This document shows, in pieces, positions 11,234 through 22,150 of a stretch of 43,881 nucleotides of DNA. Positions within the stretch are counted from its first letter, which is position 1. Each line of letters starts with the position of its first letter. Both the position numbers and the translations under genes were made by a program. This stretch comes from Eubacterium sp. (lineage in GTDB: Bacteria; Bacillota; Clostridia; Lachnospirales; Lachnospiraceae), in contig JAFRWY010000098.1 of the NCBI GenBank assembly GCA_017437905.1, positions 1 through 43,881 on the forward strand, given 5' to 3'. The notes beneath the pieces were generated by a model that ran no database searches, was not told the DNA's origin, and saw only the letters and a program-made list of their open reading frames with translations.

Positions 11234-11273
11234 CAAAACTAAATTGCCCGGGTGACTTATTACTCCCGGGCAA
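11234..11273 (-). terminator. Candidate attenuator terminator in the metY leader
   Basis: In the RNA, TTGCCCGGG and CCCGGGCAA form 9-bp arms around a 12-base loop, followed by TTTAGTTTTG. It lies between the leader ORF and the metY ribosome site. The 5' arm (TGCCCGGGAG at 11263-11272) is a perfect 10-base complement of CTCCCGGGCA inside the leader ORF (11360-11369), so the two hairpins exclude each other. Caution: CCCGGG is self-complementary, so six of the ten pairs come free, and the T run is interrupted. Confidence 0.65.
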
Positions 11274-11305
11274 ATGGCTTCTTTATACAGGCTGACGCTC
11301 TTGGA

Positions 11306-11422
11306 TCAGCTGTTCATGAGGCGGCAACATCGGCAGTCGAACGCCCCAGCCATACTACATGCCCGGGAGATGAACATTCGACAACACATCATGGTTTCAA
11401 AGTTCTTATCTGTTCTAAACAT
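11306..11422 (-). CDS. Cys/Met-rich leader peptide of metY-cysK (38 aa)
   Basis: A short ORF found by reading the leader. An AAAGGAGGCGG ribosome site stands 6-9 bases before the ATG at 11422, and the stop is TGA at 11306-11308. Of 38 residues, six are Cys (13, 14, 22, 30, 32, 33) and six are Met (1, 11, 12, 16, 24, 36), far above average. Codons 18-21 (ATC TCC CGG GCA) contain the ten bases that pair with the 5' arm of the downstream terminator. A ribosome held at Cys13-Cys14 would just leave those bases free, favouring antitermination when cysteine is short. The peptide itself is probably not a product; translation is the sensor. It matches the leader at 21424-21534 in design. Confidence 0.7.
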   Translation of the reverse strand: MFRTDKNFETMMCCRMFISRACSMAGAFDCRCCRLMNS

Positions 11423-12001: not shown

Positions 12002-13417
12002 TTACCTCCGGTCCGCGAATTCGAGGATCACTTCCCTGAGAGCCCTCCCGGCCTTCTGCTTCTCAAGCAGTCGAAGTGCAGGATTCGTCCGTTGCTCCGC
12101 CCGGCGGAACAGCGGTTCCAGGAACTGCTCCTCTCCGTGTCCGCGGCCTGCCAGACCGTCCTCCGCAAGTCGGAGGACCTCCTCCAGAAGCGAATATGCA
12201 GCATCATCAAAGCGGTGGGTATGATCCTGACGTACAAAGATCTCACGAAGCTCTCCCACGCTGTATCCCTGCTGATAAAGACCCACATTTTCATCCAGAA
12301 GCCGAGTCAGCTCCGGAAGTTTTGCCACAAGTCCCGCGTGAAATGCCGCAACCGACATTACATCCTGCACAGGCTGCTCACAGACGGATCTGCACTCCAC
12401 GGTTCCCCGGAAGGTAAGATCATTAAACTTGAAGGACCTAAGGAATTGCAGATCATCGATTCCGGGTTCGAAGGTGGCGTACTTGTACCGTCCTTCTTCG
12501 TTGTCAAAATACTCCCCCCGCACCATCCGGCTCCGAAAATAGTCCTCCACCATCACCGGCGGAAAATTGATGTACTTCCCATCCCGTTCCAGACAATACA
12601 GACTCTCCGATGCAATATAACGAACGATCTCATCCACACTGTGCAGCCGTTTGTCATACTCATCCACGTTGTGGGGATTCAGGCCGTGGAGGCTGTGCTT
12701 CCAAAGGTAGTCACGGCTGGCCAGAAACCGGTGATCCGCATCCGCCTCAAACACCGAATTGGCAAAGAGAAGCGCTTTCAGCGGCTCCAGACGGTTGAGG
12801 GTGTTCAGCATCTCCACCACATGTTCCTTCTCCGCATCCACCTGTACCTGGGACGCACAGCTGAAGAGTCCGAAATTCGGATAGTGGTGGAACTGGATCT
12901 GATTTCCGTATCCTGTATAGGATTCCAGATGATGAAGCAGCATCCGGTACCTTCCGTTCTGGATCGGCTCCACCCGGTTCACATGAAGCCCCGGATTGAT
13001 CCCCATGCCGGTCAGCGTATGCCGCTCCTCCAGTAGTTTCTCCTCGATAAAGGAATAGTACCGGTCAAAACGGTTCTTCAGAATGCAGATATTCTCTTCG
13101 ATCCCGAAGGAAAGCTCCAGTGTATTGAAGCTGCAGTCAAAGGAAATGGTGTCCCCGGTACGGGAATCCTCTGCAAGATAGATCTCTCCGTCATCATCCC
13201 GGGTTATCTTCTCAAACCCGAAACGAACCACAAAGCCCTCCGCAAGACGGTGAACAACATCAAAATCAACCGGCTCCGTCACCTCGGACAGGCCGATATT
13301 CTTCAGGTTCACGATGGGATATTCCAGTTCCACACCCACCACCGGTTTCGCAGGGCGCTCCGTGGGACGGATGTATTTCTGATCAATGGCACTAAATAGT
13401 TCCGCGTCCTGTATCAT
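12002..13417 (-). CDS. GCS2-family glutamate-cysteine ligase-like enzyme (divergent, EgtA/GshA-like)
   Basis: A 471-residue carboxylate-amine ligase of the GCS2 family, last gene of the sulfur operon. Members join the gamma-carboxyl of Glu to an amine such as cysteine, using ATP. Support: VVGVELEYPIVN near the start (metal/ATP Glu residues), GMGINPGLHVNR, FGLFSCASQVQVD, and FRGTVECRSVCEQPVQD, a typical GCS2 strand. Unlike its partner at 14393-15634 it lacks the RTQIWxxxDPxR stretch, so it belongs to another subfamily and may use another acceptor. The ATG at 13417 follows GAAAGGA; an in-frame TTG at 13432 is less likely. It lies 103 bp after the EgtC-like gene. No terminator was seen after its stop. 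Confidence 0.8.
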   Translation of the reverse strand: MIQDAELFSAIDQKYIRPTERPAKPVVGVELEYPIVNLKNIGLSEVTEPVDFDVVHRLAEGFVVRFGFEKITRDDDGEIYLAEDSRTGDTISFDCSFNTLELSFGIEENICILKNRFDRYYSFIEEKLLEERHTLTGMGINPGLHVNRVEPIQNGRYRMLLHHLESYTGYGNQIQFHHYPNFGLFSCASQVQVDAEKEHVVEMLNTLNRLEPLKALLFANSVFEADADHRFLASRDYLWKHSLHGLNPHNVDEYDKRLHSVDEIVRYIASESLYCLERDGKYINFPPVMVEDYFRSRMVRGEYFDNEEGRYKYATFEPGIDDLQFLRSFKFNDLTFRGTVECRSVCEQPVQDVMSVAAFHAGLVAKLPELTRLLDENVGLYQQGYSVGELREIFVRQDHTHRFDDAAYSLLEEVLRLAEDGLAGRGHGEEQFLEPLFRRAEQRTNPALRLLEKQKAGRALREVILEFADRR

Positions 13418-13520
13418 ATGATATCCTTTCAAATACCTTTGCTCCGTCAGGCTGTAACGTATGACAGTGAAGTATCATTCGACACAGTATGAAGAATCTG
13501 ACGGCGCAGCATGATGATTT

Positions 13521-14294
13521 TTACAGTCCCGAGAATCCGACATACAGCAGCTTCACCTGCTCCGGATCCTCCACATAAGTGAACCCATGCTTCTCTCCCG
13601 TGTAGATCCTCGTTCCGTCCTTATAGATCAGCAGTTGATTGAGAGGTATCTCGTTCCAGTTTCCCGCATCCAGGGGCCGGGTAGAGATCACAGCCTCCCC
13701 TTCCTTCTCACGGATATAGAGAGTTCCGGGTGCGTTCTTGTGGATGTAGAGATACTCTCCGTCATCGAAGATCAGATTCAGTTTATTCCCCTGGGCCAGC
13801 GTGCGGGTCACCTGCTCCGCCACATGGAAACGCTCATTTACATCAAATGAGTTCCAGTCATTCTCCAGATTCTCGTCGATCCGGTCCACCAGATAGAGAA
13901 GGATCCGTTCGCTGTCCGTGCTTCCCGCCTGGGAATACTGGTAGGGGCTGAGAACACTTGCCTCGAAGATTGTCCCGTTGTGGATCAGTGTCCATGTCCG
14001 CCCCGATACATCGCGTTTCACAAAGGGGTGTGTGTTCCGAAAATCCACATCTCCCACGGTTGCGCGGCGGATATGCGCCAGCATATGATTCGACTGTATC
14101 CCCGCGGACAGGCGGTTCTTCAGATACAGACTGTTGGATGCACGGACGGGTTCCCTCTCCACGTTCTGATGATTTCCGTCAAAGACCGCAAGTCCCCAGC
14201 CGTTCGGGTGCTCCTTACTGTGAGAGAAGAATTCCTTCAGAAGTCCGGTCACCGGAAGTTTCTCCTTCGCACTGACCGCAAAAAGCTCGCACAT
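13521..14294 (-). CDS. Class II glutamine amidotransferase-fold protein (EgtC-like amidohydrolase)
   Basis: A 257-residue Ntn-hydrolase. MCELFAV places the nucleophile Cys2 directly after the initiator Met, as in EgtC and other class II amidotransferases; NGWGLAVF, AHIRRATVG, THPFVKR, LIHNGTI and STDSERILLYL are the other conserved segments. In ergothioneine synthesis EgtC removes a gamma-glutamyl group that EgtA added. Being flanked by two GCS2 ligases suggests an analogous add-and-remove role here, but no EgtB, EgtD or EgtE is present. The start at 14294 is set by AGGAGGAGGTGAG; an alternative ATG at 14396, overlapping the upstream stop by 4 bp, would add 34 residues and bury the nucleophile. 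Confidence 0.85.
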   Translation of the reverse strand: MCELFAVSAKEKLPVTGLLKEFFSHSKEHPNGWGLAVFDGNHQNVEREPVRASNSLYLKNRLSAGIQSNHMLAHIRRATVGDVDFRNTHPFVKRDVSGRTWTLIHNGTIFEASVLSPYQYSQAGSTDSERILLYLVDRIDENLENDWNSFDVNERFHVAEQVTRTLAQGNKLNLIFDDGEYLYIHKNAPGTLYIREKEGEAVISTRPLDAGNWNEIPLNQLLIYKDGTRIYTGEKHGFTYVEDPEQVKLLYVGFSGL

Positions 14295-14392
14295 ACTCTC
14301 ACCTCCTCCTCTTTTGCATCGTCTCCACTGTCGATACCGTGTCAGTTCCTGACAGACGACCTCGTCATGTTTTGAAATGATCCGTTCCCGGC

Positions 14393-15634
14393 TCATCCGG
14401 CGGAACGCACCTTCTTCGGACCACCTGTCTTCAGTTCCGAAAGATATACCTTTTCCTCCTCCGGAAGGCTCTGCTCAGCAAGACGGAGCATGTCCCTGGC
14501 CCAGGCATAGACTCTTTTCCCTGAATAAATGATGGCATTTTCACCCTGGATTTCCGTCCGGTAGACAGCCTCCTCCACATCGATCAGATGTCCCGACAGC
14601 AGTTTCTCCAGACGTTTCAGATTGTCCTCACTGTAGAAAAGTCCCTTCAGCAGCGCTGCGTATCCCAGCGCCTTCCGGATCGGAACGCTGTCCGCCACAC
14701 GCACCTCCAGATACCGTTTCAGCCGGATATGGTGGAAAAACATGGACATCAGATGTTCCACCAAAGCCTTCTGTCTTCCGGGGTCCCCGGAGAAGGAAGA
14801 AAGGTCTATCAGTTCCGTCAGCTTTTTTTCTCCGGCATAAGTAGTCTTTCCCTGGTCTGTCAGCACCACCAGCGGACGACTGAGCAGCAGGTCCGCATAT
14901 TGGCCATATCCGAACTGCCCATGGAAGGCCCCCGGGAAGAAGCCGGTCCGTTCCGGATCCAGATCATCCCAGATCTGCGTCCTTAGCAGATGTCTGCCCG
15001 CCTGCTGCGCCAGCCGGCTGTCCGGAAATGATTTGTTCTCCATCATCTGCATCAGCACCGGGGAAAGGATGGTCAGCAGGCGAAGTTTCCGCACCATATC
15101 CTCCTCCGACGAATAATCCAGAGATATCTGCGCCGACGCGGATGCCCGCATCATGTGCGCACCGTACTTCCCCGTCTCCCGGAAATACCGGTCCATAAAA
15201 TAATACCGGTTCTTCGGTATCAGCGGTAACTCCGTGGGGTGGATCCGACCGGACTCCACTGCCGGATGCACGCCCCGCATCACCAGAGAAAACCCGAGTC
15301 CGCCGAGGACCGGATCCCACAGGGCGCGAAACGCCTCGTATACGGATTCGATCTTCGCAACGGAAGAAAACGGTGCTACGCTGATTTCAAACTGGCACGC
15401 CGGCTCCACACTGACCGTGTAGTCTCCCGCGTCATACCCGACCACATGTCCGTCGGTCACGGTAAGAACGGCTCCGATCTTCTCCCCGGTTCTTCGGATC
15501 AGTTCGGACAGAACCTCAAACTCGATCCCCTCTTCCATCTCATTTAAGATAAAGTGCTCCAGTTCGAGTCCGAGTCTTTGCTCCTTCGTCTCCCCTTTCC
15601 GTATGAAGTTTGCGATGATCTCCCTGTCTGTCAT
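14393..15634 (-). CDS. GCS2-family glutamate-cysteine ligase
   Basis: A 413-residue GCS2-family ligase, probably making gamma-glutamylcysteine from Glu, Cys and ATP. Motifs in order: RLGLELEHFIL (catalytic Glu residues), GYDAGDYTVSVEPACQFEIS, MMRASASAQISLDYSSEEDMV, RTQIWDDLDPERTGFFPG and RYLEVRVADSVP. These match the plant/actinobacterial-type GshA/EgtA enzymes better than the E. coli type. The ATG at 15634 has GGGGGA upstream. It follows the ABC ATPase gene after a 75-bp gap containing a REP-like hairpin, and its TGA overlaps an in-frame ATG of the next frame. No GshB-type ATP-grasp gene is nearby, so gamma-glutamylcysteine itself, or another gamma-glutamyl product, may be the end point. Confidence 0.85.
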   Translation of the reverse strand: MTDREIIANFIRKGETKEQRLGLELEHFILNEMEEGIEFEVLSELIRRTGEKIGAVLTVTDGHVVGYDAGDYTVSVEPACQFEISVAPFSSVAKIESVYEAFRALWDPVLGGLGFSLVMRGVHPAVESGRIHPTELPLIPKNRYYFMDRYFRETGKYGAHMMRASASAQISLDYSSEEDMVRKLRLLTILSPVLMQMMENKSFPDSRLAQQAGRHLLRTQIWDDLDPERTGFFPGAFHGQFGYGQYADLLLSRPLVVLTDQGKTTYAGEKKLTELIDLSSFSGDPGRQKALVEHLMSMFFHHIRLKRYLEVRVADSVPIRKALGYAALLKGLFYSEDNLKRLEKLLSGHLIDVEEAVYRTEIQGENAIIYSGKRVYAWARDMLRLAEQSLPEEEKVYLSELKTGGPKKVRSAG

Positions 15635-15654
15635 ATTTCCCCCTTCTGAAGATC

Positions 15655-15702
15655 CTTCGCCTTCGACCCGGCATGACTCCGGCATTGCCGGACATGGCGA
15701 AG
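15655..15702. repeat. REP-like nested hairpin inside the sulfur operon
   Basis: CTTCGCC (15655-15661) pairs with GGCGAAG (15696-15702), enclosing an inner CCGGCATTGCCGG palindrome. The outer part, AGATCCTTCGCCTTCG, resembles the repeat at 9824-9888. There is no T run, so an mRNA-stability role is more likely than termination. Confidence 0.5.
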
Positions 15703-15709
15703 AAGGAGT

Positions 15710-16507
15710 TTAACCGATCTTCCGTTCCTTCGTGATCTTTCCATAGGTAAAGGTTTCCAGGAAACGCTTTGCCCGCTCGGTCTTCGGTTTCCGGAAGAAA
15801 CCGCTGCCGGTGCCCTCCTCCACGATCCCTCCCTGATCCAGGAAGATCACACGATCGGCGATGGCTTCCGCAAAGGCCATTTCATGGGTCACGATCACCA
15901 TGGTATGACCCTGCTCCGCCAGCCGGAGCAGCACCTCCAGAACCTCGCGGATCATTTCCGGATCCAGCGCCGCGGTTACCTCATCAAAGAGCATAACCTC
16001 CGGGTGCATGGCCAGCGCCCGGACGATGGCGACCCTTTGCCGCTGTCCGCCGGAAAGCTGTCTCGGATAGGCATCCGCCTTCTCCTCCAGTCCCACCCTG
16101 GAAAGAAGCGACAGCGCTTCCGCCCGCACCTCCTGCTTCTCGCGCTTCTGTACCTTCACGGGTGCCAGCATCACATTCTGCAGGATCGTCTTATGGGGGA
16201 AGAGTTCGTAACTCTGGAAGACCATGCCCACCTTTCGGCGGATTTCGGAAAGCTTCTCCGACGCTTTACGGTCCCTCCGTCCCACTGCACCGTTCACATG
16301 GGAACCGCGGTAGGTGACTGTCCCCTCCTGTATCTCCTCCAGTCCGTTCAGGCAGCGAAGCAGGGTACTCTTGCCGCAGCCGGAGGGCCCGACGATCACC
16401 ACGACTTCCCCTTCACAGATCGTGAGGGAAAGATCCTTCAGGATCACATTTTCTCCATATGCTTTTGTCAGGTGCTCCACCCGGAGAATCTCACTTGCCT
16501 TACTCAT
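15710..16507 (-). CDS. Polar amino acid ABC transporter ATP-binding protein (GlnQ/HisP type)
   Basis: A 265-residue ATPase. Walker A is GPSGCGKST (about residues 40-48), the signature is [15 protein letters not shown], and Walker B reads [14 protein letters not shown], with Val in place of the usual Pro in DEPTSALD; the switch His is in VTHEM. It pairs with the two permeases directly upstream, and probably with the family-3 half of the fused binding protein. The ATG at 16507 is preferred over the TTG at 16513 because of its distance from GGGAAG. Confidence 0.9.
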
Positions 16508-16552
16508 ATCCAAACTCTTCCCTTTCCGTTTTCACGGCTCAGCCGAAAATGT

Positions 16553-17233
16553 TCACGCGACCGCCCAGCGTTTCTCCAGATGCTTCGCCACCAGACTGAT
16601 GGGCCAGCAAGCCAGGAAATACAGCAGAAAGACCACTGCATATACGCCGAAAGCCGCATTTGGCGAAGAATTCCTGTTCGCTTCTATGATCTGCTGTCCC
16701 ACTTTTAACACCTCCACCACGCCGATCATCATGACAAGACTTGTAGTCTTGATCATTCTGGTGATCAGGTTGATGGAGAGCGGGATCAGACGCCGCAGGG
16801 TCTGCGGGATTATGATCAGAAGGTACGTCTGTCTTCCGTTTAATCCCAAAGCCGCCGCACTTTCATACTGATGCTTCGGGATGCTGATCAGTGCCCCCCT
16901 GGTCAGGTCCGCCATTTCCGCAACTCCCCAGAAGGAAAATACGATCACTGCGGAAAGCTCTGCGTCCACGTCCCATCCGAAGACATGGGTCGACCCGAAG
17001 AATACGATAAAAAGCAGCACCATTTGCGGCATGAACCGCACGATTTCCAGATAGCCTCTGGTCAGGATCCGGATCACCGGATGCTTCTTCGTCATAAGGA
17101 TTCCCACCAGGACACCCAGTGTCAGACTGATCGCTACCGAGATCAGGCTGATCCGGAGAGACACCCAGAGCCCCTCCAGAAGGCGCTGCCCGTTTGTTCC
17201 TTTAAACAGTACATCAATACCCAAAGCCTGCAC
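16553..17233 (-). CDS. Polar amino acid ABC transporter permease
   Basis: A 226-residue inner-membrane permease of the His/Glu/Gln/Arg family with about five hydrophobic segments. The EAA-like loop ESAAALGLNGRQTYLLIIIPQTLR contacts the ATPase. The start is GTG at 17233, behind AGGAGG; it overlaps the upstream permease by 20 bp, showing tight coupling. With its partner at 17214-17873 it should form a heterodimeric channel. Confidence 0.9.
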   Translation of the reverse strand: MQALGIDVLFKGTNGQRLLEGLWVSLRISLISVAISLTLGVLVGILMTKKHPVIRILTRGYLEIVRFMPQMVLLFIVFFGSTHVFGWDVDAELSAVIVFSFWGVAEMADLTRGALISIPKHQYESAAALGLNGRQTYLLIIIPQTLRRLIPLSINLITRMIKTTSLVMMIGVVEVLKVGQQIIEANRNSSPNAAFGVYAVVFLLYFLACWPISLVAKHLEKRWAVA

Positions 17234-17873
17234 GCCGCATCCTCCTTTCCAGCCAGCTTCCCAGGAAGGAAACCGGAAGAAGCATGATCAGATAAAAGAT
17301 CACCAGCAGCACAAGACACTCCGTGGTCTTGTAATAAAGCCCGATCAGATCCTTCGCCGTGAACATCAGATCCATCAGACTGATGGCCGAGAATACGCTG
17401 GTCTCCTTAAGGAGAAAGATCACATTTGCGGTGAAGCCGGGTATGCTGACAGAGACGGCCTCCGGAAGCACCACCAGCCGAAGCACCTGTCCCCGGGTCA
17501 TGCCGAGGGAAAGTGCGCTTTCGACCTGGGTTTTCTCCACCGTCTCCAGTCCGCTGCGGAAGGTCTCCGCCATATAAGCACCGCCCAGCAGCCCCAGTCC
17601 CAGGATTCCGCAGAACTCCGCGCCGATCCTGATCCCCAGCTTCGGAAGTCCGAAATAGAGAAAGAAGAGCTGTACCAGGAGCGGTGTATTCCGGAAGAGC
17701 TCGATATAGATGCCCGCCAGCTGACGGAGCACCGGAACCCGGTAATGCCGCACTACGGCAGTCACAAGTCCGATCACGAAGGAAAGCAGGATTCCCAGCC
17801 AGCCGATCCGGAAGGTCAGCCAGAGTGCTTTCCCGAACAGGGGCAGATACGACCCCATTACCTCCAGATTCAT
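17214..17873 (-). CDS. Polar amino acid ABC transporter permease
   Basis: A 219-residue permease of the same family. It contains the family hallmark YIELFRNTPLLVQLFFLYFG, then AYMAETFRSGLETVEKTQVESALSLGMTRGQ, an EAA loop, and ALSLGMT. Its ATG overlaps the metI stop by 4 bp, and its end overlaps the next permease by 20 bp, so the metI-type and polar amino-acid modules are physically one operon. Confidence 0.92.
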   Translation of the reverse strand: MNLEVMGSYLPLFGKALWLTFRIGWLGILLSFVIGLVTAVVRHYRVPVLRQLAGIYIELFRNTPLLVQLFFLYFGLPKLGIRIGAEFCGILGLGLLGGAYMAETFRSGLETVEKTQVESALSLGMTRGQVLRLVVLPEAVSVSIPGFTANVIFLLKETSVFSAISLMDLMFTAKDLIGLYYKTTECLVLLVIFYLIMLLPVSFLGSWLERRMRRAGFGY

Positions 17874-18532
17874 ACTCTCCGCCTGTCAACCTTTCCGGAG
17901 AGAAGCATTCCCAGCCACTGCAGGATCTGCATGAGGAGTACCAGTACCACCACGGTAATGATCATGACCTCCGTTTCATAACGGTAGTATCCGTACCGAA
18001 TGGCGATATCACCGAGTCCTCCGCCACCGATCACGCCCGCCATTGCGGAATATCCCAGGATCGTACCAAGTGCAATCGTTATACCCACAAGGAGAGATGT
18101 CCTGGCCTCCGGGATCAGTACCTTCCGGACTATGGTAAACTCACTGGCTCCGAGGCTTACAGCCGCCTCGATCACGCCCCGATCCACTTCCTTCAGGGAA
18201 TTCTCAACCATCCGGGCGATGAGCGGTGCTGCAGCGATCGTCAGGGGAACGATAGTCGCCGTCGTTCCGTAACTCTTGCCCACCACCAGCTTCGTCAGCG
18301 GCTGGATCAGAATAAGAAGGATCAGAAAGGGAACGCTTCTCGTCACATTTATGATCAGATCCAACACCCGGTAAAGGACCGGATGCGGAGTGATTCCGTC
18401 TTTATTTGTTATGGTAAGAAGGACGCCGAGGGGCAATCCGATCAGATACCCGAGGGCTGTGGAAATGAGGACCATCCGAAGAGTGTCCAGGGTTCCTTCC
18501 AACAGCATGGGCCATATATCAGCCAACTGCAT
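17870..18532 (-). CDS. metI: Methionine-type ABC transporter permease MetI
   Basis: A 220-residue permease of the MetI family. Matches include TLRMVLISTALGYLIGLPLGVLL, NVTRSVPFLILLILIQPLT, the EAA loop EAAVSLGASEFTIVRKVLIPEA and GYSAMAGVIGGGGLGDIAIRYGY, a strong MetI hallmark. The ATG at 18532 is preferred over a GTG at 18538, which would leave no room for the AGGAGG. It overlaps metN by 14 bp. It should carry Met or Cys-type substrates with MetN and the NlpA half of the fused binding protein. Confidence 0.93.
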   Translation of the reverse strand: MQLADIWPMLLEGTLDTLRMVLISTALGYLIGLPLGVLLTITNKDGITPHPVLYRVLDLIINVTRSVPFLILLILIQPLTKLVVGKSYGTTATIVPLTIAAAPLIARMVENSLKEVDRGVIEAAVSLGASEFTIVRKVLIPEARTSLLVGITIALGTILGYSAMAGVIGGGGLGDIAIRYGYYRYETEVMIITVVVLVLLMQILQWLGMLLSGKVDRRRV

Positions 18533-19400
18533 GCGCACCTCCTTTGATCACGCGCAGATTCTTCGATTCCTGTTCAGGCTCCTGCGCTGCCTCAGTTTTT
18601 GCTGTTTCGTCTGCCGTCTCCGGCTCCTCCTTCGCCAGCTCTTCTTCCAGCTGCTCGCTCTCACGCAGGAGCAGAAGCTGCCGGGCCGCCCTGGATCTCG
18701 GATTCCGGAAGACCTCCTGTACCGGCCCGGTCTCTGCCACGGTTCCGTGGTACAGGACGGCAACCCGGTCACAGATCTCCGTGATCACCCGCATTTCATG
18801 GGTAATGATCACTATGGAAATGTTGTACTCCCGGTTCACCTTCCGGAGAAGTTCCAGAATGGTCCGGGTGGTCTGCGGATCGAGAGCACTGGTCGCCTCA
18901 TCGCAGAGGATGATATGCGGATGAGACGCCAGGGCCCGTGCGATCGCAACACGCTGCTGCTGGCCTCCGGAGAGCTGGACCGGATAGGCCCTTGCCTTAT
19001 CCTCCAGTCCCACAATCCGAAGATACTCCAGTGCTTCCTTCCTTGCCTCCTTCTTCCGAAGGCCTGCGATCTCAAGCGGGAAGCAGACATTGTCCAGCAC
19101 CGTTCTTTGCATTAACAGATTGAACTGCTGAAAGATCATCGCTATGTTCTGCCGCTCCAGCCGGAGCTCATGTTTGGAGAGAGCGGAAATATCCTTTCCC
19201 CCCACCCGGATCCATCCGGATTCCGGACGCTCCAACAGATTGATGCAGCGAACCAGCGTGCTCTTTCCTGCTCCGGAAAGACCGATCACTCCGAAGATCT
19301 CGCCTTCCTCCACGGATAGACTGACCTCCTTCAACGCCTGTACGGCTCCGTTCTTTCCGGAATATGTCTTATTCACCTGTTCCAGTTCAATGACTGCCAT
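18519..19400 (-). CDS. metN: Methionine-type ABC transporter ATP-binding protein MetN
   Basis: A 293-residue ATPase. Walker A is GLSGAGKST, the signature LSGGQQQRVAIARAL, Walker B IILCDEATSALDPQT, as in MetN. The C-terminal NIL/ACT-like regulatory domain that gives E. coli MetN its methionine trans-inhibition is replaced by a short Glu/Ala/Thr-rich tail (about 240-293). Transport may therefore not be shut by internal methionine. AAGGAGG stands before the ATG. A hairpin separates it from the binding-protein gene. Confidence 0.92.
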   Translation of the reverse strand: MAVIELEQVNKTYSGKNGAVQALKEVSLSVEEGEIFGVIGLSGAGKSTLVRCINLLERPESGWIRVGGKDISALSKHELRLERQNIAMIFQQFNLLMQRTVLDNVCFPLEIAGLRKKEARKEALEYLRIVGLEDKARAYPVQLSGGQQQRVAIARALASHPHIILCDEATSALDPQTTRTILELLRKVNREYNISIVIITHEMRVITEICDRVAVLYHGTVAETGPVQEVFRNPRSRAARQLLLLRESEQLEEELAKEEPETADETAKTEAAQEPEQESKNLRVIKGGAHAVG

Positions 19401-19454: not shown

Positions 19455-21155
19455 TTAGTTGAACGGGATCACTGCTCCGTCATAGGTATCGATGATATAC
19501 TGACGGATCTCCTCGGACTCCAGAGCCTTTACCAATGCCCGGATCTTTTCGCTGTTCTCATTCCCGGCCTTTACGCCGATGATGTTTACGTAGGTCCTGG
19601 CTGCCTCGGAATCGGACTTCTCATATGCGATGGCATCCTTTCCGACGGAAAGACCTGCCTCCAGTGCATAATTTCCGTTCAGGACTACAAATGCAACTTC
19701 ATCTCTTACGCGGGATACCTGTGCTGCTTCCAGCTCCTGGATCTTCACGTTCTTCGGGTTCTCTTCGATATCCAGTACGGTTGCGGTAAGGCCTGCGCCC
19801 TCCTTCAGTTTGATCACACCATTTGCCTGCAGAAGCAGAAGTGCACGTGCTTCGTTTGTGGTATCGTTCGGTACGGCGATGGTATCACCATCCTCCAGCT
19901 GATCCAGAGAAGCCTTGGTGCCCGGATAGATTCCGAAGGGCTCATAGTGGATGCCTGCCGCATTTACAATGCTTGTACCGTTTTCCTTGTTGAAATCATC
20001 CAGATAAGGTACATGCTGGAAATAATTTGCATCGATCTCGCCGCTCTCTACTACCAGATTCGGCTGAACATAATCTTCAAATTCTGTTACCTGCAGATCC
20101 CATCCCTCTGTTGCCAGGATGTCCTTTGCCTTTGCAAGGATCTCGGCGTGGGGTGTGGGAGATGCTGCTACGGTGATGGTACCCTTTGCTTCCGGAGCAG
20201 GAGCCGCGGTGGTTGCTTCTTCCTTCTTCTCCGGAACTACGCCGCCCTCGATGACCAGTGTATCTTCAAACTCTGTTCCGTATGTGCCAACCAGTGTTGC
20301 TTCATAATCTGCATGGAAGAACTTCTCGATGCCAAGTGCCTTGATCTCGTCATTCAGCCAGTTGAGAAGGGTTGAATTTCCCTTGGTCACGGCCGGTGCG
20401 ATGGTGTCAGCGCTGCCGAGGGAATCAATGCCTACGGTATAGCCCTTGTTCTCCTTGGCAAATGCGATCACCTCCGTGTTATCATTTGCCCACGCCACGC
20501 CGGTGCCGTTCTCAAATGCACTCTTGGCTGCTGCATAAGTGTCGAACTTCTGAAGCTTGATGTCGGAATTATTCTTCTCCAGGTAGGTCTCGGCAGTTGT
20601 TCCGGAAATGACGATAATCTGCTCATCAGCCGTTACCTGACCGAGGTCCGTGATCACATGATCATCATGGGATACAACTCCCAGTGCCACATTCATGTAC
20701 GGAAGTGCGAAATCAACCTCTTCCGCCCGTTCCGGGGTTACCGTGAAGTTTGCAAGGACAATGTCCACCTTTCCTGTCTTCAGATACTCGATACGGCTGG
20801 CTGCCTCTGTGGATACGTAATTGATCTTAACGCCCAGATCCTTGCCGAGACGCTCTGCCAGATATACATCATAGCCCTGATAGGTTCCGTTCTCATCCAC
20901 ATATCCGAAGGGGGATTTGTCTGAGAAAACTCCGATATTCACGGTACCGGACTCCTTGATCTCATCCAGTGTCCGGTAGATCGCCTTGTCCTCTCCGGTA
21001 CTCGTTGCATCGGTGCCCTTCGCTGCTGCGGAGGAACCGCTGTTGTCACCGCATGCGGTAAGCAGTCCCAGGGATGCGACTGCCGTCAGCCCGAAGGCTG
21101 CGATCTTCTTCAGTAAGCTCTTTTTCTTTGCACTTTTTTCTATGTTCTTCTTCAT
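19455..21155 (-). CDS. Two-domain ABC substrate-binding lipoprotein: family-3 (cysteine-type) fused to MetQ/NlpA
   Basis: A 566-residue lipoprotein. A signal peptide ends in the lipobox LLTAC (lipid Cys35). Residues about 60-300 form a family-3 solute-binding domain; AASRIEYLKTGKVDIVLANF, TPERAEEVDFALPY and MNVALGV are close to cysteine/aspartate binders such as CjaA/PEB1. After a Glu/Ala/Pro linker (about 304-324), residues 325-566 form a complete NlpA/MetQ domain (VAASPTPHAEIL, DANYFQHVPYLDDFN, GIYPGTKASLDQL, IAVPNDTTNEARALLLLQ). These are normally separate proteins. The genes downstream encode matching permeases and ATPases for both types, so one lipoprotein may feed two transporters. No stop or frameshift interrupts the fusion. 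First large gene of the operon, controlled through the leader upstream. Confidence 0.92.
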   Translation of the reverse strand: MKKNIEKSAKKKSLLKKIAAFGLTAVASLGLLTACGDNSGSSAAAKGTDATSTGEDKAIYRTLDEIKESGTVNIGVFSDKSPFGYVDENGTYQGYDVYLAERLGKDLGVKINYVSTEAASRIEYLKTGKVDIVLANFTVTPERAEEVDFALPYMNVALGVVSHDDHVITDLGQVTADEQIIVISGTTAETYLEKNNSDIKLQKFDTYAAAKSAFENGTGVAWANDNTEVIAFAKENKGYTVGIDSLGSADTIAPAVTKGNSTLLNWLNDEIKALGIEKFFHADYEATLVGTYGTEFEDTLVIEGGVVPEKKEEATTAAPAPEAKGTITVAASPTPHAEILAKAKDILATEGWDLQVTEFEDYVQPNLVVESGEIDANYFQHVPYLDDFNKENGTSIVNAAGIHYEPFGIYPGTKASLDQLEDGDTIAVPNDTTNEARALLLLQANGVIKLKEGAGLTATVLDIEENPKNVKIQELEAAQVSRVRDEVAFVVLNGNYALEAGLSVGKDAIAYEKSDSEAARTYVNIIGVKAGNENSEKIRALVKALESEEIRQYIIDTYDGAVIPFN

Positions 21156-21171: not shown

Positions 21172-21285
21172 CTATTTTAGACGTTTTCGTCTGTGTTTAT
21201 GTCTTTTATTCCACTCTTCTCTTTTATCCGTTAATCTGTAACATCGCCGCCCCTGCGGCATTCGCTTTCCATTCGAATACATCAT
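21172..21285 (-). CDS. Possible small basic protein (37 aa) between attenuator and binding-protein gene
   Basis: A short ORF with AAGGATGG about 8 bases before tandem ATG codons at 21285 and 21282, ending at TAG 21172-21174, 16 bp before the lipoprotein start. It is very basic: many Arg and Lys, with a KRHKHRRKRLK end. I recognise no family. It may be a real small protein, a translation-coupling device, or chance; the basic composition of AT/GA-rich leader sequence could produce it without selection. Confidence 0.3.
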   Translation of the reverse strand: MMYSNGKRMPQGRRCYRLTDKREEWNKRHKHRRKRLK

Positions 21286-21362
21286 GGTCTTTACCATCCT
21301 TTCATTTTTTTCATTTCAGATAACCGCATTTACTCACGCCAAGCATTTTAGGTCAATGGCAC

Positions 21363-21396
21363 AAAAAAAACCGGAATCCTTATACAGATCCCGGTT
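21363..21396 (-). terminator. Attenuator terminator in the leader of the transporter operon
   Basis: In RNA sense AACCGGGATC and GATTCCGGTT form a 10-bp stem (one G-U) around an 8-base loop, followed by eight T. It is a strong intrinsic terminator, yet it lies inside the leader, 207 bp before the lipoprotein start and 27 bp after the leader ORF stop. Leader-ORF bases 21461-21477 are complementary, with two bulges and one mismatch, to its 5' arm and flank (21385-21400), giving an alternative antiterminator. Confidence 0.8.
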
Positions 21397-21423
21397 CAAA
21401 TCGCAGATATCCGACAGCGTCAT

Positions 21424-21534
21424 TCAGGCACGGCAAACCGCCGCATCACCGCTGTCTCGACCGAATCGGGAATCCTGCAGCATGCAACCGCACATCATAC
21501 ACATACATGTAGTTGTGAAATACGATGTTCTCAT
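21424..21534 (-). CDS. Cys/Met-rich leader peptide of the transporter operon (36 aa)
   Basis: A short ORF with GGAAAGGAAAG about 8 bases before the ATG at 21534 and TGA at 21424-21426. Five of 36 residues are Cys (10, 12, 15, 17, 34) and five are Met (1, 11, 13, 14, 18); residues 10-18 are nearly all Cys or Met. Codons 20-25, directly after this cluster, contain the bases that can pair with the 5' arm of the terminator at 21363-21396. As in the metY leader, the pairing bases encode Ser-Arg a few codons after the Cys run. It is most simply read as a translated sensor of Cys-tRNA and perhaps Met-tRNA supply. Confidence 0.7.
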   Translation of the reverse strand: MRTSYFTTTCMCMMCGCMLQDSRFGRDSGDAAVCRA

Positions 21535-21613
21535 TACCGTTCTTTCCTTTCCCTGCCCCGGATCCCGGAGATGACATCCGTCGTTCAGAGCATGTTTTTG
21601 AATGACAAGGTGA

Positions 21614-21647
21614 AGTATATACCTTTTCGCCTACTATGTCAATAGGT
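21614..21647 (-). promoter_or_regulatory. Promoter of the transporter operon with CymR-like operator
   Basis: TTGACA (21637-21642) and TATACT (21614-21619) are 17 bp apart on the minus strand. The dyad ACCTATTGACATAGTAGGC (21629-21647) overlaps the -35, and 17 of its 19 bases match the metY operator. Transcription should start near 21607, about 73 bases before the leader ORF. Confidence 0.78.
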
Positions 21648-21691: not shown

Positions 21692-21724
21692 TTGAACCTC
21701 CCATTACCCTATGATATAGTAGGT
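21692..21724 (+). promoter_or_regulatory. rrf2 promoter with putative autoregulatory operator
   Basis: TTGAAC (21692-21697) and TATAGT (21715-21720) are 17 bp apart. The dyad ACCCTATGATATAGTAGGT (21706-21724) covers the -10, one base shorter in its centre than the other two sites. It suggests that the Rrf2 protein represses its own gene and the divergent operon. Confidence 0.7.
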
Positions 21725-21751
21725 AAAAGGGTTAAAGAGGGGGAATTTACT

Positions 21752-22150
21752 ATGATATCAACCAGAGGCCGCTATGCCCTCCGCGTTATGATCGATCTCG
21801 CGGAGCAGAAAAGTGACAGATTCGTCCCATTGAAGGATATCGCCGAGCGTCAGGGAATCTCCAAAAAATATCTGGAGATCATCGTGAAGGACCTGGTGAC
21901 CGGCGGACTGCTCGTGGGAGCCAGCGGAAAAGGCGGCGGTTACCGGCTTTGTCGCGAACCGGAGGAATATATTGTCGGTGAGATTCTGGAACTTATGGAG
22001 GGCTCACTCTCTTCCGTTGCTTGTCTGAAGGAGCCGGACTATGACTGCCCGAGGAAAAACGCCTGCCAGACACTTCCCATGTGGAAAGAATACGATCAGC
22101 TGGTACATAACTTCTTCTATTCGAAGAAGCTTTCCGATTTTTTATCCTGA
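21752..22150 (+). CDS. Rrf2 family transcriptional regulator (CymR-like)
   Basis: A 132-residue winged-helix regulator. MISTRGRYALRVMIDLAEQ, VPLKDIAERQGISKKYLEIIVKDL and GKGGGYRLCREPEEY are the Rrf2 DNA-binding hallmarks. Cys residues occur in VACLKEPDYDCPRKNACQT, at the place where IscR and RsrR hold their Fe-S ligands; many CymR-type proteins lack such a cluster, so a metal or Fe-S ligand is possible. In Bacillus, CymR works with CysK to repress cysteine genes; here cysK and metY carry the same operator, which supports that role. The ATG at 21752 follows AGAGGGGG. Divergent from the transporter operon. Confidence 0.88.
   Translation: MISTRGRYALRVMIDLAEQKSDRFVPLKDIAERQGISKKYLEIIVKDLVTGGLLVGASGKGGGYRLCREPEEYIVGEILELMEGSLSSVACLKEPDYDCPRKNACQTLPMWKEYDQLVHNFFYSKKLSDFLS

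Follow-up and report, generated by a model that had tools for sequence, protein, structure and literature searches.

What controls the transporter operon on the minus strand of this Eubacterium sp. contig? The window, by which we mean the whole stretch of 43,881 nucleotides that was analysed, encodes a fused binding protein (SBP) and a series of transporter genes, and from 21650 to 21155 the minus strand holds, in this order, an operator-like repeat and promoter, a ribosome-binding site, a leader ORF, a terminator, a second small ORF and the fused SBP gene. The leader looks like a copy of a switch that many clostridia share and that would turn sulfur genes on when cysteine is short.

A cysteine- and methionine-rich leader ORF precedes the transporter operon

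Positions 21630..21646, minus strand: operator-like inverted repeat CCTATTGACATAGTAGG overlapping the -35 box (sequence)
Positions 21614..21642, minus strand: predicted promoter TTGACA-17-TATACT, 11/12 consensus match (consensus scan)
Positions 21542..21552, minus strand: purine-rich ribosome-binding site GGAAAGGAAAG, upstream of the leader ORF (sequence)
Positions 21424..21534, minus strand: leader ORF of 36 codons, MRTSYFTTTCMCMMCGCMLQDSRFGRDSGDAAVCRA (sequence; Cys/Met leader at 13/13 full-length fused-SBP loci)
Positions 21481..21507, minus strand: sensor codons, residues 10-18, CMCMMCGCM (sequence; density in 0/5000 shuffles)
Positions 21172..21297, minus strand: second small ORF, 41 codons, ..RMPQGRRCY.. 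(ends 16 nt ahead of the SBP start)
Positions 19455..21155, minus strand: fused binding protein of 566 aa, SBP_bac_3 plus NlpA/MetQ-like (both halves above Pfam cut-off; NCBIfam cystine and MetQ models below cut-offs)
Positions 15710..19400, minus strand: MetN-like ATPase, MetI-like permease, two polar/cystine-type permeases and TcyN-like ATPase (best NCBIfam matches, below equivalog cut-offs)
Positions 12002..15685, minus strand: two glutamate-cysteine-ligase-like genes, one on either side of a class-II glutamine amidotransferase gene, at the operon end (Pfam GCS2 twice, GATase_4)
Positions 21708..21723, minus strand: similar site CCTACTATATCATAGG ahead of the Rrf2 gene (sequence)
Positions 21692..22150, plus strand: divergent Rrf2-family regulator gene (exceeds the Pfam Rrf2 cut-off; falls short of those of the IscR and CymR models)

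Cysteine occupies residues 10, 12, 15 and 17 of the leader ORF and methionine residues 11, 13, 14 and 18, so the 36-codon ORF with four Cys and four Met in residues 10-18 that the original prediction described is there to be read. When the 536-base intergenic stretch was used as the template for 5000 dinucleotide shuffles, the best nine-residue window contained six Cys plus Met (once), against eight in the real ORF. Among ATG ORFs no longer than 80 codons, this leader is also the only one in the window with eight Cys plus Met in nine residues. Leader peptides match no known protein family (0/4 in NCBIfam and 0/3 in Pfam).

The genes behind the leader fit the amino acid that would be sensed, as judged by family matches of the transporter genes, of metY and of the genes at other loci. 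Most NCBIfam matches of the transporter genes lie below equivalog cut-offs and their substrates are therefore putative. The GCS2 pair and amidotransferase at the operon end (12002-15685, minus strand) perhaps make gamma-glutamylcysteine or a related thiol.

At the promoter, an Rrf2-type repressor bound to the CCTATTGACATAGTAGG site probably contributes control. The strict motif CCTATTGAC(n3-5)TAGG occurs within 300 nt upstream in 67 of the 99 members of the leader family that have at least 250 nt of upstream DNA. The divergent Rrf2 gene is listed from a TTG, and the in-frame ATG at 21752 is the likelier start. One own-genome match to the ribosome-binding-site stretch (G000:C114) falls inside a protein-kinase-like ORF and is due to chance.

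The leader has a terminator and a predicted antiterminator pairing

Positions 21363..21397, minus strand: intrinsic terminator, 12-pair stem (21397-21368) plus eight T ending at 21363 (scan, sequence, fold)
Positions 21467..21478, minus strand: antiterminator P1 5' strand, core TCCCG 21471-21467 (Ser22-Arg23 codons), extension GCAGG 21478-21474 (fold without the terminator 3' arm)
Positions 21384..21393, minus strand: P1 3' strand, CGGGA core 21393-21389 and TCTGT 21388-21384, sharing bases with the terminator 5' arm and loop (fold)
Positions 21458..21465, minus strand: P1' 5' strand, antiterminator extension TTCGGTCG (fold; within-species pairing test)
Positions 21395..21403, minus strand: P1' 3' strand CGATTTGAA, one bulged base (fold)
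Positions 21450..21456, minus strand: hairpin P2 5' strand, GACAGCG (fold)
Positions 21413..21419, minus strand: hairpin P2 3' strand, CGCTGTC, directly after the leader stop codon (fold)

The terminator stem (21397-21368) has a predicted stability of -17.3 kcal/mol, and 207 bp separate the end of its T run (21363) from the SBP start at 21155; sequence and scan thus agree with the predicted eight-T terminator 207 bp ahead of the first large gene. When the transporter leader is folded minus the terminator 3' arm, GCAGG pairs with TCTGT, TCCCG with CGGGA and TTCGGTCG with CGATTTGAA, all around the GACAGCG:CGCTGTC hairpin. The earlier claim that the bases after the Cys/Met cluster can pair with the terminator 5' arm therefore holds for the pairing itself, whose core TCCCG:CGGGA is present in the fold. 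In this single copy the pairing is no better than the peptide would lead one to expect: 336 of 1000 synonymous recodings of the pairing stretch pair as well or better. A wider version of this test with 12 leaders gave 117 of 300 recodings as good for the window copy.

Equilibrium folding assigns the terminator of the window transporter leader a probability of 0.96-0.98 with the ribosome absent, stalled or at the stop codon, and no equilibrium switching was seen in any of the ribosome states folded. Since the terminator is favoured in every state, a switch must rest on co-transcriptional kinetics. Among 11 transporter-type leaders, the P1 core has no pair changed on both sides; their extended pairing is predicted at -22.8 kcal/mol within species versus -18.5 kcal/mol between species, and 0 of 5000 permutations were as low, kinship not being removed from this comparison of own with cross-species pairing. 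Taken alone, the window copy does not make much of a case for a switch. Given its results in the recoding and equilibrium-folding analyses, confidence in this copy rests on the leader family.

Orthologous operons carry the same kind of leader

Positions 11306..11422, minus strand: sister leader ORF ahead of metY, MFRTDKNFETMMCCRMFISRACSMAGAFDCRCCRLMNS (sequence)
Positions 11239..11386, minus strand: metY leader, match to family model R1 from the Cys codons to the terminator (127.3 bits, E = 5.4e-28)

Model R1 was built from 31 aligned metY-type leaders of the genus (set A1) with the antiterminator as structure; the window metY leader is one of the 31. We searched the fused protein against 61 genomes (its own and relatives) and recovered 13 full-length fused orthologues with upstream DNA, the window's own included. 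A Cys/Met-rich leader lies upstream of all 13. At nine of these loci (L033-L041), where the fused orthologue is nearer to the window, the leader is of the CMCMM..CMLQxSR type (CMCMMCGCMLQxSR) or an intermediate, and at the other four (G031, G059, G016 and G003) it is a CCRM/CCCRM..SRA leader of the metY type. A metY-type leader also stands ahead of an unfused SBP homologue in G010, and a DNA search added transporter-type leaders in two more genomes (G046 and G033).

The original prediction regarded the transporter leader as a second, independently built attenuator, with a base sequence unlike that of the metY leader and an agreement in spacing and in the Ser-Arg pairing site. The agreement is real: the distance from the last Cys codon to the Ser codon is 15 nt in both leader types, and the TCCCG/CGGGA core is common to them. 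The base sequences do differ, yet this is no proof of separate origin, and independent construction is unsupported, given that four species have a metY-type leader at the orthologous operon. With that type at the same operon in the same genus, in no simple sense is the transporter leader a separate invention.

Two leader types that arose independently and converged, with the attenuation mechanism unchanged, would explain why their bases differ outside the pairing site and why the metY-type model matches the transporter leader at just E = 0.021. With filters off, R1 matches this leader weakly, in second place among window sites and in the same register, an unrelated site following at E = 0.033; at E 0.01 it is not among the three own-genome matches. 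Against separate origins stand the same-genus species with the metY type at the orthologous operon, the shared 15-nt spacing and core, and the way leader type follows the SBP tree, which is weakly resolved. That tree, of 28 rows, needs two changes of leader type, and 0 of 500 label shuffles are as low; one leader-type change is seen in 68% of 200 bootstraps, and three of 25 inner branches are well supported. Orthologous position and spacing shared with the metY leader are both found, as indirect evidence and with a tree of limited resolution. We consider independent origin unlikely. Divergence of both types from one ancestral leader would be the simpler account of these sequences, replacement or convergence being less likely.

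The antiterminator covaries across a family of leaders

Leaders of the metY type have TCCCGGGCA at the Ser-Arg-Ala codons; its pairing partner TGCCCGGGA is the terminator 5' arm, and ATGGCT:AGCCAT extends the pairing. On the 31 genus sequences of A1, 92.3% of the antiterminator cells are paired and six of 16 pairs have changed on both sides (0/500 shuffles). We find the same in A4, an alignment of 104 rows from 100 sources that was fitted to the antiterminator structure: 93.0% of its cells are paired, compared with 20.7-50.8% for slid versions, and 13 of 16 pairs have changed on both sides, in 65 cells (0/500 shuffles, uncorrected for relatedness). A pattern was used to choose 44 of the 100 sources, and that choice fixes the 5' strand in their rows. 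At the level of the family, covariation in A1 and A4 therefore points to an antiterminator that excludes the terminator. The folding and covariation analysis that had been suggested as a check is favourable to the family, whose antiterminator covaries, and gives little for the window copy, in which the terminator is always favoured at equilibrium and whose P1 core has no pair changed on both sides in 11 leaders.

Coding and geometry are conserved as well. An ATG with a Shine-Dalgarno sequence is open through the cluster in the Cys frame of 98 of 104 rows, versus 3 and 3 for the other two frames, and in the seven residues up to the last Cys 32% are Cys and 16% Met (728 residues, pattern-chosen rows included). 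A terminator lies behind all 43 leaders listed, 41 by automatic pick and two (L075 and L094) by manual placement. In 40 of 42 leaders the start of the last Cys codon lies 15 nt ahead of the Ser (or Thr) codon; in the other two the distance is 12 nt. A ribosome with the last Cys codon in its A site would, from its footprint, end about at the Ser codon.

Synonymous recoding of 42 leaders gave a mean z of -1.76, and in 28 of them at most 50 of 1000 recodings were as good. Equilibrium folding of the window metY leader puts the terminator at 0.00 with a stalled ribosome, 0.97 with the ribosome at the stop and 0.37 free; across all 42 leaders, a stalled ribosome gives a lower predicted terminator probability than one at the stop in 16 cases, a higher one in four and a similar one in the rest. 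Both sets leave out L024, a six-Cys leader without the Ser-Arg site. That leader (L024 1583-1687) has six consecutive Cys codons (MFNQMMSNRICCCCCCNKNNSILRMFCESTSGLT), the same operator and a different terminator.

Two further pairings were scored and have partial support. An alternative '1:2-like' pairing of the Cys-Arg-Met codons GTCGAATG with CGTTCGAC is formed in no more than 69.8% of cells, though above the level of shuffles (1, 13, 3, 0 and 0 of 500 as good on five measures). Among 15 leaders with a changed first strand, the own partner is best or nearly so for L054 and L117 (1/103 others as low); it ranks among the top 18 of 103 for L057, L150, L158 and L018 and is unremarkable in the other nine. 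It is plausible that this pairing is real; our main claim does not need it. For the metY-type hairpin P2, the shuffle counts are 0/500 on three measures and 118 and 10 of 500 on two, and a version slid by -2 pairs nearly as well (76.9% versus 79.1%).

The leader family is found ahead of sulfur genes in many Bacillota

At E 0.01, R1 finds matches in 38 of 61 genus genomes (training sequences and own genome included) and, with the own genome counted, in 25 of 392 order genomes and 15 of 174 genera; at E 0.001 it finds them in 16 of 391 class genomes and five of 398 phylum genomes (own genome again counted). A pattern scan of named genomes returned at least 119 stretches. Among the 80 matches listed, record titles include Lachnospiraceae, Oscillospiraceae, Ruminococcaceae, Saccharofermentans, Christensenella and Anaerovibrio; a CCGGGA strand lies downstream in 75 of these 80, followed by a T-run in 73. 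The five listed without the strand, including a Pseudomonas and a cyanobacterium, are evidently chance matches. Leaders of both types are present in the genome of Lachnospiraceae bacterium AC2029, a cultured relative. At 78 loci among the matches listed, the ORF behind the leader is metY in 47, a cystine-type SBP in 12, MetQ in seven, a Tcy permease in six, a Tcy ATPase in one and none of these in five. The transporter-type model R2 matches 49 of 392 order genomes at E 0.01, with only the own genome and G088 (E = 7.7e-21) standing out; the remaining matches (E of 1.9e-5 or higher) resemble generic terminators.

In the own genome R1 finds three leaders, that of metY and two on contig C44, and the transporter leader makes four. 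The C44 leaders lie near 2053 and 13515 of L093 (G000:C44:14500-31500). Behind one come genes for an SsuA-family sulfonate transporter and a (2S)-3-sulfopropanediol dehydratase (above cut-off), together with a sulfite-reductase-like gene; behind the other are an O-acetylhomoserine-sulfhydrylase-like gene (below cut-off) and one for a ThiS-ThiF-rhodanese fusion. In four further cases (L117, L118, L120 and L128), the gene behind the family leader encodes a product of about 300 aa that includes ERESITAKLCAFARAWHSY. In many leaders (for example, L134, L136 and L160) Arg(CGA)-Cys(TGT) stands at or close to the end, before the stop (CGATGTTGA), which sets a second Cys codon beside a CGA just before termination.

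Proposed mechanism and alternatives

Based on these comparisons, we propose that the transporter leader is a ribosome-mediated transcription attenuator that reads charged cysteine tRNA (probably methionine tRNA too) and is a member of a Lachnospiraceae/Bacillota RNA family, and we put the probability of this reading at roughly 0.8. When cysteine is plentiful, the ribosome would pass the Cys/Met codons and run on to the leader stop, disrupting the antiterminator (P1, P1' and P2), so that the terminator would form and the transporter operon would be off. Under a shortage of cysteine (or methionine), the ribosome would stall within the cluster so that its leading edge lies immediately upstream of the Ser-Arg codons. 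The bases of these codons could then pair with the terminator 5' arm as it emerges from RNA polymerase, and transcription would continue into the fused SBP and transporter genes. The transporter leader extends about 30 nt beyond the pairing strands and the metY leader about 50 nt; because leaders run past these strands, a ribosome at the stop codon does not itself cover them. We infer the stalling, the direction of the response, the amino acid that counts, the exact ribosome footprint and the repressor. The original prediction of a Cys/Met leader attenuator ahead of the transporter operon is supported by the conserved ORF, its frame and spacing, the terminator and the family-wide antiterminator pairing, which, like the sulfur-gene context, emerge from comparing sequences.

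The same region could instead hold a constitutive terminator that releases a short RNA or a Cys-rich peptide as its product, with the Rrf2 repressor at the promoter as the operon's sole control. The divergent Rrf2 gene and the shared operator-like site overlapping the promoter would suit such an arrangement, as would the terminator of the window copy, predicted stable in every state. However, switching alone needs an antiterminator, and the antiterminator covaries across the family. The fixed Cys-to-Ser distance and the presence of the leader before several different sulfur genes also speak against it, and the peptides vary widely in sequence and length outside the cluster and the pairing codons, so we hold this explanation to be improbable. 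More remote still is a riboswitch or T-box that senses cysteine, SAM or tRNA directly and makes the ORF incidental. Such control has precedent in Clostridium perfringens, where cysteine T-boxes control cysK and cysP genes (PMC2940859). Yet the conserved part of the leader is open in one frame, and neither a T-box nor a SAM or other riboswitch has an Rfam match at gathering score anywhere in the window (0 matches); relaxed-threshold scans of both leaders gave matches at chance level, none of them to a T-box.

The attenuator that we favour may have a second stage. The small ORF between the terminator and the SBP gene carries the motif RMPxGRRC[CWY], with CGA codons directly before its Met and Cys codons. 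The sequence CGAATGCCGCnnGGGCGGCGATGTT (up to three mismatches) occurs once in each of 10 of the 61 genus genomes, the own-genome site being this ORF. A small ORF with RMPxxxRC is encoded at nine of nine transporter-type loci read, and the motif was not found at the five metY-type transporter loci read or in G088. In the leaders, the Arg codon after Cys is CGA in 27 of 27 cases (31-row set A1; four more rows have no Arg there); across 13 genes of the window, CGA accounts for 12 of 383 Arg codons. One could imagine a two-amino-acid, two-stage sensor in which the alternating Cys/Met codons act as an OR gate for either shortage, the second small ORF as a translational checkpoint and CGA as a means to sharpen the stall. 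An OR gate for Cys or Met shortage would match an operon with cystine-type and methionine-type parts behind a fused SBP. Against it, the second small ORF was not seen to sequester the SBP ribosome-binding site, which is predicted open and accessible, and CGA may instead serve RNA pairing. We regard this extension as speculative and doubtful.

Comparison with known attenuation systems

The leader family has no match in Rfam, Pfam or NCBIfam, and we found no description of it in the open-access library that was searched. The word 'cysteine' occurs 0 times in the main texts of the motif surveys PMC11109978 and PMC6429828. Apparently the RNA family and its host group are undescribed and the mechanism is of a known kind. 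For bacteria that are difficult to culture, the family amounts to a list of genes that are candidates for a cysteine response (metY, cystine and methionine importers, sulfonate use). Its 15-nt spacing in 40 of 42 leaders would offer a clean system for the distance from stalled ribosome to antiterminator.

The trp, his and leu leaders are the classical ribosome-mediated attenuators of amino-acid operons. Like these, the leaders described here combine a short ORF with codons for the regulated amino acid, alternative pairings and an intrinsic terminator before the operon; unlike these, they use Cys (and Met) codons, precede uptake and sulfur-assimilation genes of Bacillota and run well past the pairing strand. 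Polycysteine leaderless ORFs have reportedly been found in mycobacteria (work attributed to Canestrari in 2020). Runs of Cys codons ahead of cysteine genes are common to those ORFs, to our leaders and, as far as the available part of the report goes, to the Cys leader peptides of Actinobacteria (PMC1262725). That part describes no conserved terminator hairpin for the Mycobacterium leaders and suggests Rho (PMC1262725), whereas the clostridial leaders have an intrinsic terminator and a covarying antiterminator. The uORFC-8-2 motif ahead of cysS in Rhodobacterales, with 145 examples, is similar in its tandem Cys codons within a uORF, its intrinsic terminator and the proposed stalling at low charged tRNA-Cys; it is set apart from the clostridial leaders as a motif of Alphaproteobacteria and of cysS only (PMC8632094).

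In the literature consulted, cysteine control within the clostridia is attributed mainly to T-boxes and CymR-type repressors; one source remarks that other mechanisms may exist (PMC2940859). If our proposal is true, a translated cysteine sensor across Lachnospiraceae, Oscillospiraceae and other Bacillota would be one of these. Our leaders share with the clostridial cysteine T-boxes, as presented there, premature termination relieved by cysteine shortage and overlapping kinds of genes, and differ in that T-box RNAs carry a specifier codon and a T-box motif (PMC2940859) and the leader here gives no T-box match. Leader-peptide attenuation has also been predicted in Firmicutes for histidine leader peptides ahead of hisS and hisZ in bacilli, which differ from the present family in the amino acid, histidine, and in the genes controlled (PMC2965389).
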